Shown here piece after piece: positions 40,935 through 45,782 of a stretch of 64,000 nt of DNA (its first letter is position 1; each line of letters starts with the position of its first letter). Below the pieces are notes generated by a model, which worked only from the letters and a program-made list of their open reading frames with translations, made no database searches and had not been told where the DNA came from. Both the position numbers and the translations under genes were made by a program. Origin of the DNA: Myxococcus stipitatus DSM 14675 (GTDB lineage: Bacteria > Myxococcota > Myxococcia > Myxococcales > Myxococcaceae); assembly GCF_000331735.1 (NCBI RefSeq), contig NC_020126.1, positions 4,340,001 through 4,404,000 on the forward strand, in the 5' to 3' direction.

Positions 40935-42284
40935 GTGGACCGTCCTGTGAGCGCGCCAAACACGATTGTCGGCCTGGGGGCTCGGACAGACCACATCGCC
41001 ACTGTGCCCAACGTGGACCCCGCTCGCCTCCAGCTCACGCCGGAGGAGACCGCGGTGCTGTCACTCGTTGGCCGCGTGGAGCGTATCGAGCTGGTGCTGT
41101 CACGTTCCACCCTGGGTGAGGCCCGCACCATCGCGCTGCTCCTGTCGCTTCGCGCGAAGGGCGCCATCGTCCCCGCGCGCGTGGTGCCTCGGAACCAGCC
41201 CGCGCCCGCGGTGGATGCGGCCCTGGCCGAGGAAGTCGACCTGGAGCCGGAGCGGAAGAAGGAGATCATCGACCTGGAGCGGGCCCTGGACGGGTTGGAC
41301 CACTTCGCCGTCCTGGGGCTGCGGCCGGGGGCCCCCGCCACCGAGGTGAAGCAGGCGTACTACAACGCGTCGCGCCGCTATCACCCGGACCGCTACTTCG
41401 GAAAGAACCTGGGCAGCTTCCGCGCGCGCATGGAGCGCATCTTCCGGAGGCTGACCGACGCGCACAACGTCCTCACGCAGCAGGACAAGCGCGATGCGTA
41501 CCTCAAGGCCCACCCGGCGCTCGCGCAGGCGTCCACGCCCGCACCGGCGCCCGCCGCTCCCGCGGCCTCGCCCGCTCCCGTCTCCGCGGCGTCGTACCCC
41601 GCGATGGAGCTGACGCCCCTCACGCCGGTGCCGCGCTCGCTGACGCGCCCCACGCCCGTCGCGGCGCCGCCTCCGCCCACGCCCGCACCGGTGAACGACG
41701 CGGAGTCGGAGGCCCGGCGCGCGGAGCGGCAGGCTCGGCTGGCTCGCCATCCGTACATGGCGCGCAACGTGAAGCTCTCGGAGCTGGTGGCGCGGGGCAA
41801 GGCGGCGGTGGCTCGGGGGGACTGGGAGCGGGCGTACCAGGACTTCCACCAGGTGCAGACGCTGGACCCGAAGAACCGCGAGGTGGCGACGCTGCTCCTC
41901 GAAGCCCGCAAGAAGCATGACGAGCAGCGCGCGGCCGTCGAGGTGTCTCGCGGGCGTGAGCTGGAGCAGCACGGCGACGACGTGGCGGCGCTGGCGGCGT
42001 TCCGGCTGGCGTACTCGCTGGATGGGGCGAACGCGGAGGCCGCGTATCGCGCGGCGAAGCAGGGGCTTCAGCAGGGCCAGGACGTGGGCGAGGTTCGCGC
42101 GCTGGCGCAGCGGGCCGTGGACCTCCAGGGGGCTCGGGTCGAGCACCATCTGTTGTTGGGGCGGATTCTCATGGATGCCGGGTCCAAGAAGCTGGCCAAG
42201 CGGGTGTTCGAGGATGCAGCGAAGTTGGAGCCGGACAACGCCGAGGCCAAGGCGGCGCTCAAGAAGCTGCGCTGGACCTTCTAG
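40935..42284 (+). CDS. J-domain (DnaJ-like) protein with TPR C-terminus
   Basis: 449 aa. A helical N-terminal domain (about 35-85) resembles the DUF4388-like or winged segments seen in other myxobacterial proteins; the J domain (about 118-190) has an intact HPD (150-152) in RRYHPDRYF. An Ala/Pro linker (about 200-265) is followed by a helical TPR region (about 280-449). There is no Gly/Phe or zinc region, so this is a class C J protein that should stimulate the adjacent DnaK paralogue. The start is GTG at 40935 or 40947. It precedes dnaK by 17 bases. Confidence 0.85.
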   Translation: MDRPVSAPNTIVGLGARTDHIATVPNVDPARLQLTPEETAVLSLVGRVERIELVLSRSTLGEARTIALLLSLRAKGAIVPARVVPRNQPAPAVDAALAEEVDLEPERKKEIIDLERALDGLDHFAVLGLRPGAPATEVKQAYYNASRRYHPDRYFGKNLGSFRARMERIFRRLTDAHNVLTQQDKRDAYLKAHPALAQASTPAPAPAAPAASPAPVSAASYPAMELTPLTPVPRSLTRPTPVAAPPPPTPAPVNDAESEARRAERQARLARHPYMARNVKLSELVARGKAAVARGDWERAYQDFHQVQTLDPKNREVATLLLEARKKHDEQRAAVEVSRGRELEQHGDDVAALAAFRLAYSLDGANAEAAYRAAKQGLQQGQDVGEVRALAQRAVDLQGARVEHHLLLGRILMDAGSKKLAKRVFEDAAKLEPDNAEAKAALKKLRWTF

Positions 42285-42301
42285 GATGGACACGCTCTGC
42301 C

Positions 42302-44143
<1,842 letters not shown>

Positions 44144-44953
44144 ATGACCACGGAGCGCGCCAACCAGCTCGTCGAGGCGGGGCAGTGGCTGCGCCTCAGT
44201 GGCGACCCGCAGGGGGCGCGCAAGCTGTTCGAGCGGGCACTCGTGTTGGACATGGGCAACGTCCGCGCTCGCGAGGCGCTGGCCTCTCTGGACGCGCCGG
44301 TGGGACGGGGCGCTTCAACGCTGAACTCTCCCGCGGACATCGCGCCCCTGGCGTCCCTCGACGGCGATTGGGGCGCGTGGGCCGAAGGGGAGGGCGGTCC
44401 GCTGGAGGAGGAGGACGAGGAGCGCTCGCCCAGCGTGCTGCTGCCGGAGTTCGACGAGCCGGTCCCCGGAAGCGACGTGCTGGCCCTGCTGGCCCGCGAC
44501 GAGACCCCCACGACCCAGGAGTCCGGTGTCCCCGATGGCGACACCGACGAGTACGGCGTCCCCGCAGGCGAGAACGAGCTGGAGCGGCTGCTCCGTGGCG
44601 CGACGGACCTGCTGGAGCTGGATGACCACTCGGGCGCGGTGGACCTGCTCTTCAAGGCGCAGGAGCTGGCTCCGGGCGACCCTCGCGTCGAGGCGCTCCG
44701 TGCGCGCAGCGAGCGGATGTTGATGGGCATGCTCGAGTCGAAGCTCGGGGACCTGGGCCGGGTGCCTCGGGTTCGGCTCCAACCCGATGACATCATCTGG
44801 CTCAGCCTGGACCACCGCGCGGGCTTCGTCCTCGCGCAGATTGATGGCGCGGTGACGTTCGAGGACGTGTTCTCCCTGTCGGGGATGACGCGCCTGGATA
44901 CGGCCCGCATCCTCGCGCAGCTCCTCGACGAGGGGGTCATCGCCGCGGCCTGA
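44144..44953 (+). CDS. TPR-like protein encoded with DnaK paralogue
   Basis: 269 aa. Residues 1-45 form a TPR-like pair of helices (ANQLVEAGQWLRLSGDPQGARKLFERAL). An acidic, low-complexity middle (about 60-145) is followed by a second TPR-like part (about 150-195) and a C-terminal 60 residues (IIWLSLDHRAGFVLAQIDGAVTFEDVFSLSGM) similar to the helical C-terminal module often found on myxobacterial DUF4388/PATAN-type regulators. The ATG directly abuts the dnaK stop, so translation is coupled. Probably a co-chaperone, adaptor or client of this Hsp70; specific function unknown. Confidence 0.75.
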   Translation: MTTERANQLVEAGQWLRLSGDPQGARKLFERALVLDMGNVRAREALASLDAPVGRGASTLNSPADIAPLASLDGDWGAWAEGEGGPLEEEDEERSPSVLLPEFDEPVPGSDVLALLARDETPTTQESGVPDGDTDEYGVPAGENELERLLRGATDLLELDDHSGAVDLLFKAQELAPGDPRVEALRARSERMLMGMLESKLGDLGRVPRVRLQPDDIIWLSLDHRAGFVLAQIDGAVTFEDVFSLSGMTRLDTARILAQLLDEGVIAAA

Positions 44954-44973
44954 GCCGCGATTGGGAAGCCGAG

Positions 44974-44999
44974 TTGACAGGTTCCTGTCATGATGACAG
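44974..44999. promoter_or_regulatory. Overlapping palindromes with three TGACAG half-sites
   Basis: TGACAG-GTTC-CTGTCA (44975-44990) and CTGTCAT-G-ATGACAG (44985-44999) share their central half-site. A perfect TTGACA -35 hexamer (44974-44979) overlaps the first half-site. Placed 64-89 bases before the VOC gene start, it looks like an operator for a dimeric repressor or activator. Confidence 0.55.
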
Positions 45000-45062
45000 T
45001 TTCAGGGGGTCGTGCGCCCTTGGAAGTGGAGTCCGTGCGCGCGGCCTGCGTGAGGCGCATCC

Positions 45063-45782
45063 ATGGACCCTGATTCCAGCATCCCCGCGCTCCCGTGTGT
45101 CGAGCTGGGGGCGACCCTCGAGTTCTACGGCCGTCTGGGTTTCAAGACGACGTATCAGCAGCGCGCGCCCAATCCCTATGCGGCCACGAACCGCCAGGGG
45201 GCGGAGCTCCACTTCTTCGGGGTGAAGGGATTGGACCCCGCGGCCGCCTACAGCGTCTGTCTCATCATCGTGAGCGAGGTGGAGAAGCTGCACGCGGAGT
45301 TCTCGGAGGCCTTTCGTCAGGGCTATGGGAAGGTTCCGCTGCGGGGTGTGCCGCGCATCACCCGGATGAAGAAGGGGCAGTCTCGCTTCACCGTCGTCGA
45401 CCCGAATGGGAACTCCGTCATGTTCATCCGAAAGGACGAGCCGGAGGGGTATGGCGATGATGACGTCGACACGGACGCCCAGCCCGCCTCCGTGTTGGGC
45501 AAGGCCCTCAAGACGGCGCGCCGGTTGCGTGACTTCAAGGGGGACGACGCGATGGCCGCGAAGGTCCTCGACGGCGCGCTGAAGAAGCCCGGAGGCGGGA
45601 CGGTGCTGGAGCGGGCTCGGGTCATCCTGGCCAGCGCGGAGCTGGCCGCGGTCCTGTCGGGCTCGGACCGGGCGCGCGAGCGGCTTCGCGAGCTGGACGC
45701 ACTGGCGCTCTCGGCCTCGGAGCGCGACTCGCTGCGGGAGGAGCACGCCGCGGTGCGGAAGTTCATCGAGGCCGCGAAGTAG
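45063..45782 (+). CDS. VOC-superfamily (glyoxalase/bleomycin-resistance-like) protein with helical extension
   Basis: 239 aa. The first 125 residues have the VOC fold pattern: ELGATLEFYGRLGFKT, a loop, GAELHFFGVKG, YSVCLIIVSEVEKL, and FTVVDPNGNSVMFI. They resemble bleomycin-resistance proteins, where the fold binds drugs or metals. The C-terminal 100 residues (about 140-239) are highly charged and helical (KTARRLRDFKGDDAMAAKVL, ALSGSDRARERLRELDAL), possibly TPR-like. Metal ligands are not clearly conserved, so a binding role is as likely as catalysis. The preceding gap holds the TGACAG operator-like element. Confidence 0.75.
   Translation: MDPDSSIPALPCVELGATLEFYGRLGFKTTYQQRAPNPYAATNRQGAELHFFGVKGLDPAAAYSVCLIIVSEVEKLHAEFSEAFRQGYGKVPLRGVPRITRMKKGQSRFTVVDPNGNSVMFIRKDEPEGYGDDDVDTDAQPASVLGKALKTARRLRDFKGDDAMAAKVLDGALKKPGGGTVLERARVILASAELAAVLSGSDRARERLRELDALALSASERDSLREEHAAVRKFIEAAK

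Follow-up and report, generated by a model that had tools for sequence, protein, structure and literature searches.

A run of TGACAG half-sites stands before a gene for a VOC-family protein in Myxococcus stipitatus and covers a promoter-like hexamer, which raises the question of whether it is a genuine operator and, if it is, of which regulator. The site lies in the window, by which is meant the whole 64,000-nucleotide stretch of DNA that was analysed, and positions refer to it unless a contig is named. The letters at 44974-44999 are TTGACAGGTTCCTGTCATGATGACAG, with the first base 89 bp 5' of the ATG of the VOC gene (45063-45782, plus strand, 239 aa). An earlier note on this DNA had described two palindromes with a common half-site over TTGACA, and both are indeed present, TGACAGG-TT-CCTGTCA at 44975-44990 and CTGTCAT-G-ATGACAG at 44985-44999, with CTGTCA (44985-44990) common to the two and a perfect TTGACA hexamer at 44974-44979. 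It is proposed here, with a high degree of confidence, that a MarR-family protein binds the motif as its operator and acts as an autoregulated, probably inducible repressor of its own gene and of the VOC gene, the marR-VOC operon being the likely ancestral state. This reading draws on sequence, conservation, genomic uniqueness, linkage, co-occurrence and predicted fold, from which we infer binding, repression, a leaderless start, induction, the ligand of the VOC protein and the direction of rearrangement.

Architecture of the operator and its putative promoter

Aligned across relatives the site reads TTGACA-N6-TGTC-N4-TGACA-N6-TGTC, followed by the start codon, which gives two outward palindromes whose starts are 19 bp apart. 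In the window the full tandem operator takes up 44974-45008 on the plus strand, with palindrome 1 (TGACA-N6-TGTCA, 44975-44990) overlapping the -35-like hexamer and palindrome 2 (44994-45009) having an intact left half, TGACA, and a degenerate right half (45005-45009). The three half-sites counted in the earlier note are those that are visible, but the tandem operator has four, the last of which is lost in the window copy. The comparison used a family set of 96 genomes that was searched for VOC homologues, MarR and the operator, and in which the VOC genes that are separated from marR are called detached. Palindrome 1 is exact in TTGACA and TGTC in 36 of the 40 family marR operators and in all 11 detached VOC operators; it is imperfect in L040, L041, L073 and L074, with L073 and L074 retaining palindrome 2. 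An exact TGTC as the fourth half-site is found in 28 of the 40 marR operators and 3 of the 11 detached VOC operators, and palindrome 2 is degraded or missing in G058 and G059 of the family and in Nannocystis. Exact half-sites and distances to the start codon in the family marR operators were read row by row from the alignment. L062 was dropped before counting as a duplicate of L068, and the operator list leaves out L115 (marR frame broken).

Palindrome 1 is not only conserved but covaries, as its columns 7 and 12 are complementary in 41 of 46 marR rows, compared to a mean of 31.5 and a largest value of 38 in 2000 shuffles. The spacer of the inner palindrome is asymmetric across relatives and complementarity at its columns 17/21 and 18/20 is not above that of the shuffles, although the pair 12/26 is complementary in 40/46 rows and so reaches the shuffle maximum (largest 40), which leaves the inner palindrome some support. 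The 46 rows leave out L116, L131, L117, L118 and L123, whose operator sites were read by eye, the alignment windows of L116 and L131 being off the true site; the alignment column counts include these two off-site rows. A shifted dimer on a shared half-site was rejected as the main unit, with the inner spacer at shuffle level and palindrome 1 above it. The overlap that the earlier note pointed out is real, but it is probably a by-product of two outward palindromes in tandem.

The claim of a perfect -35 holds for the hexamer itself, but no good -10 was found and a strict sigma-70 scan of 44850-45150 returned no promoter. Conservation of the first T in TTGACA (column 1 versus column 18) goes beyond what the palindrome requires, which suggests that TTGACA serves as a -35 element (44974-44979, plus strand). 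A weak candidate -10, CAGTTT, is found after a 17-bp spacer at 44997-45002 on the plus strand; in relatives CAGNNT is common 17 bp beyond TTGACA (A in column 25, T in column 29) and could be a -10, which would place the transcription start at the marR start codon. In 38/40 family marR genes the distance from the operator's first T to the start codon is exactly 36 nt (35 and 37 nt in the others), and because of it the marR messenger is probably leaderless.

Whether a protein at such a site represses or activates is not readable from sequence, and the weak -10 resembles that of some activated promoters, thus MarR might be an activator here, or a constitutive autorepressor that no ligand releases. 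Either is unlikely, though likelier than the other alternatives, as the palindromes extend from the -35-like hexamer as far as the start codon, a layout typical of repression, and MarR-family proteins are described in PMC3737563 and PMC10458429 as homodimers that are often autoregulated and for the most part, as PMC3737563 has it, ligand-released repressors. Inverted repeats are also able to form a stem, and the site could then be an RNA hairpin or terminator of the upstream dnaK-TPR operon. This is highly improbable, since a scan of the window site found nothing terminator-like, on which the terminator was rejected, and the marR copies place the operator immediately before a start codon in unrelated surroundings. 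The upstream neighbour, a TPR protein gene (44144-44953, plus strand), is context and stands outside the proposed regulon. Together with a J-domain/TPR gene and an Hsp70 paralogue it makes up a chaperone-like cluster at 40935-44953 of the window, and, judged from the upstream sequence, eight relatives share with the window the order of TPR gene followed by VOC gene.

Candidate regulator and distribution of the operator

The palindrome TGACAG-N4-CTGTCA occurs without mismatch once in the window and at three places genome-wide, and the longer motif TTGACA-N6-TGTCA-N3-TGACAG has two perfect matches in the 10,350,586-bp genome (G000). No match has one or two mismatches, and at three mismatches there are four rows, among them the marR site read on the opposite strand. 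One perfect match lies before the VOC gene, and the other, 4.7 Mb distant, runs up to the start codon of a MarR-family gene. Short palindromes are frequent in general, which is all that speaks for a chance palindrome of no function; with about 9e-5 perfect matches expected from base composition alone, two observed, both at paired genes, and conservation in 11/11 detached orthologues, the probability of chance is negligible and that reading is refuted for practical purposes. The single palindrome TTGACA-N6-TGTCA is found at four distinct places, which include the VOC and marR operators. The third, a near-perfect TTGACAGTTTCCTGTCAA at G000:C1:10211613-10211629 (L080, L184), is 3' of an AraC-type gene and has no obvious promoter role; the fourth, at C1:2730118, is shortly 5' of an unrelated lipoprotein-like gene. 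A further sequence, TGACAGAGCGCTGTCA, is found in the space between two genes at C1:2912163. Considered as further members of the regulon, C1:10211613, C1:2730118 and C1:2912163 were none of them convincing.

The second operator is at C1:9064790-9064815 on the minus strand, with the start codon of the MarR-family gene (G000:C1:9064327-9064779, minus strand) 36 nt after its first base. The protein carries the MarR_2 domain PF12802 (47.7 bits, 1.8e-12, cut-off 27), as does that of Corallococcus (50.8 bits, 1.9e-13, same cut-off). In Corallococcus-type genomes the MarR gene is immediately 5' of the VOC gene, overlapping it or nearly touching, and an orthologue search with the Corallococcus-type MarR reached the same G000 gene as the operator search, at 53% identity. 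The genus labels of the family genomes (Corallococcus-type, Pyxidicoccus-type and so on) are those we take them to have. As its start codon adjoins the second operator and it is reached independently through the Corallococcus-type neighbour, this MarR is identified as the likely regulator, and the TGACAG motif is very probably, on sequence grounds, bound by a MarR-type protein whose gene is distant, in line with the earlier guess of a regulator encoded elsewhere. MarR-family operators are usually palindromes of 16-20 bp, according to PMC10458429, and a palindrome of 16 bp stands before 40/40 family marR genes, imperfect in four.

Among the 96 family genomes, 49 have a full VOC homologue and 40 a MarR, with both genes in 40, VOC only in 9, MarR only in 0 and neither in 47 (Fisher 1.2e-18, relatedness ignored). 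Left out of these counts were weak VOC fragments in G005, a second G003 match and, for MarR, paralogues in G014 and G015 at E 3.8e-29 and weaker. marR is directly 5' of VOC on the same strand in 29/40 genomes and apart from it in 11/40, all of which belong to the genus of the window. None of the 40 family marR genes lacks the operator before its start, though some copies are imperfect, and all 11 detached VOC genes keep it upstream, the core having 0 mismatches in ten and 1 mismatch in one. The idea that it serves the VOC gene is supported by this, and the lack of conservation upstream of orthologues that would have spoken against it was not seen where the VOC gene is apart from marR in a genome that has both. 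All nine VOC homologues in genomes without MarR have 6-7 mismatches, the level of shuffled sequence, and no operator. The VOC genes inside operons showed no operator of their own in the upstream listings, which was judged by eye and not by scoring.

A scan of the family with at most one mismatch found matches in 49/96 genomes, and each of the 33 zero-mismatch matches has a marR or VOC match that starts 12-97 bp from it; with the pattern reversed as a control, 0 matches were obtained in all 96 genomes. One-mismatch matches away from marR and VOC were found in G061, G081 (two), G082 and G085 and as one common site, TCGACATC...GATGTCTCCATGACA, in G060, G066, G067, G075, G076 and G077, which have no MarR. 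The site in G061 (L180, G061:C1:88773), CTGACAATGCATTGTCATATTGACA, is shortly 5' of a thioester-reductase-like ORF, possibly an additional regulon member in that genome. The nine VOC homologues without MarR (L081-L089) have a longer N-terminus and different upstream regions that are partly similar to each other, and for these reasons are probably under other control.

By sequence alone other regulators with TGTCA/TGACA half-sites would be compatible with the motif, which might belong to one of them and merely also be found at the MarR gene. The Pho box of PhoB-type regulators, which consists of CTGTCAT direct repeats 11 bp apart, is one such case, and CTGTCAT here resembles one half of it. However, the direct repeats are here 19 bp apart and their units are palindromic, on which distance the Pho box was rejected, and for any other regulator it would have to be explained that the operator precedes the MarR gene in 40/40 family genomes and that its absence tracks that of MarR. 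This alternative is thus improbable, and the MarR-type protein stays the preferred regulator.

Outside the family the same pairing is found. A scan of named genomes gave 138 VOC relatives, of which 80 were kept, with MarR just upstream in 24/80; pairs outside the family are those of Polyangium (2), Sorangium (2), Nannocystis (6, one with a broken marR frame) and Micromonospora (2). Both palindromes are present in Polyangium and Micromonospora, the second is weaker in Sorangium, and Nannocystis has palindrome 1 only, once with a mismatch. Scanned with at most one mismatch, six Polyangium, Sorangium and Micromonospora genomes have the motif at a single place in five cases, which we equate with the marR site as its sequence is identical to the one read upstream of marR, the sixth, Micromonospora G096, having one additional one-mismatch match; a Nannocystis genome scanned in the same way gave no match. 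At the 56/80 loci without MarR upstream the operator is absent from 52 (5-8 mismatches) and present at 4, which are those of Myxococcus species with the split arrangement. A search of the phylum with a MarR profile matched 41/195 genomes, all in the family of the window, with G014 as a weaker paralogue; the MarR-carrying Sorangium, Polyangium and Nannocystis genomes are evidently outside the 195.

How the two genes came to be separate can be asked of their trees. Detached MarR genes make up a single clade (100/100), and the detached VOC genes group with the Corallococcus-type VOC (100/99) without being one clade in the best tree, a single clade not being rejected (p 0.136). The two detached groups, MarR and VOC, have different relatives as neighbours in the best trees, and because of this a simple split of one operon is not proven. 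The MarR data do not reject the grouping seen for VOC (p 0.225), which leaves room for a single ancestral operon that broke up; a grouping of the detached VOC with the Pyxidicoccus-type is rejected (p 1.2e-5). The trees would fit a split of the operon or the gain of a VOC gene together with its operator, and the ancestral arrangement was probably a two-gene operon of marR followed by VOC.

The VOC protein and the proposed mechanism

The VOC protein consists of a bleomycin-binding-like domain (residues 1-125) and a C-terminal part of six helices (144-238), as seen in a predicted structure with a mean pLDDT of 91.3, the prediction having been made for this protein only. Its match to the Pfam Glyoxalase family is just under the cut-off, and its top NCBIfam matches are to bleomycin-binding families at scores far under theirs (BLMT 35.5 bits versus 210, BLMA 32.0 versus 140). 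Sequence profile and structure comparison both rank bleomycin- and zorbamycin-binding proteins first, nine such entries heading the structural list with Z of 15.6-17.5, where the rest reach 12.7 at most, and the best being 1ecs (Z 17.5, 117 residues, 2.0 A). The likeness to BLMT, BLMA, Shble and ZbmA thus lies in the VOC domain, although the window protein is only ~26% identical to them, is under the family cut-offs and has the extra six helices. The helical part is present in all 16 proteins of an alignment, and four Corallococcus-type homologues (L020-L023) are shorter, at 198-203 aa, with part of the tail lost. A second structure comparison gave TPR-type rows (LapB, LpoP) for the tail, for which no likeness to TPR is claimed, as Z values of this order are common for helical repeats. 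The protein resembles a drug-binding protein, any bleomycin resistance is putative at most, and we know of no link between it and bleomycin production or exposure.

The best reading is therefore of an autoregulated MarR repressor with a regulon of two promoters, inducibility being probable. The ancestral marR-VOC operon would have been read from a promoter inside the tandem operator, where MarR dimers on both palindromes would cover the region from -35 to +1 and repress transcription, including that of their own gene. In the lineage of the window marR and VOC sit at different places with one copy of the operator each, so that both would remain under a single regulator although it is encoded 4.7 Mb from the VOC gene. 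On binding a small molecule MarR would let go of the operator and the VOC gene would be switched on; its product, with a bleomycin-binding-like fold and a helical tail, may bind and neutralise the inducer or a related molecule; MarR probably keeps this antibiotic-binding-like protein off until it is needed.

The module is present in Myxococcota and Micromonospora. More tentatively, and at somewhat less than even chances, it may be a mobile, inducible protection module, a MarR sensor with a helical-tailed VOC protein, that shields predatory soil bacteria from a natural product they encounter; in that case it would work after separation of the genes because both places carry the operator. On the same tentative reading this would be a clean natural example of a regulator and its target parting whilst the operator is retained. 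One operator with one regulator across phyla, outlasting the break-up of the operon, would be a case for studies of regulon rewiring. An orphan operator would gain a specific candidate regulator, an uncharacterised VOC gene family a likely role in small-molecule binding under drug-type control, and, should the inducer be found, a two-promoter biosensor would be ready to hand.

Relation to known MarR systems

The literature that was searched, which left most subscription journals outside its coverage, held no description of this MarR-VOC regulator-target pair. The operator is genuine and now has a likely regulator, and the system is of an ordinary kind with the history of a split regulon. It shares with other autoregulated MarR repressors whose target gene is a neighbour (SCO3205; EstR/EstC) a winged-helix regulator and a palindromic operator at the regulator's own promoter and at that of the target, and SCO3205 has two operator sites 5' of the regulator gene, as are seen before marR here (PMC3737563). 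Unlike in SCO3205 and EstR/EstC, the unit TTGACA-N6-TGTC is here repeated at 19 bp and ends at the start codon, the target gene encodes a VOC protein that resembles bleomycin-binding proteins and has a helical tail, and in the lineage of the window the regulator and its target are unlinked.
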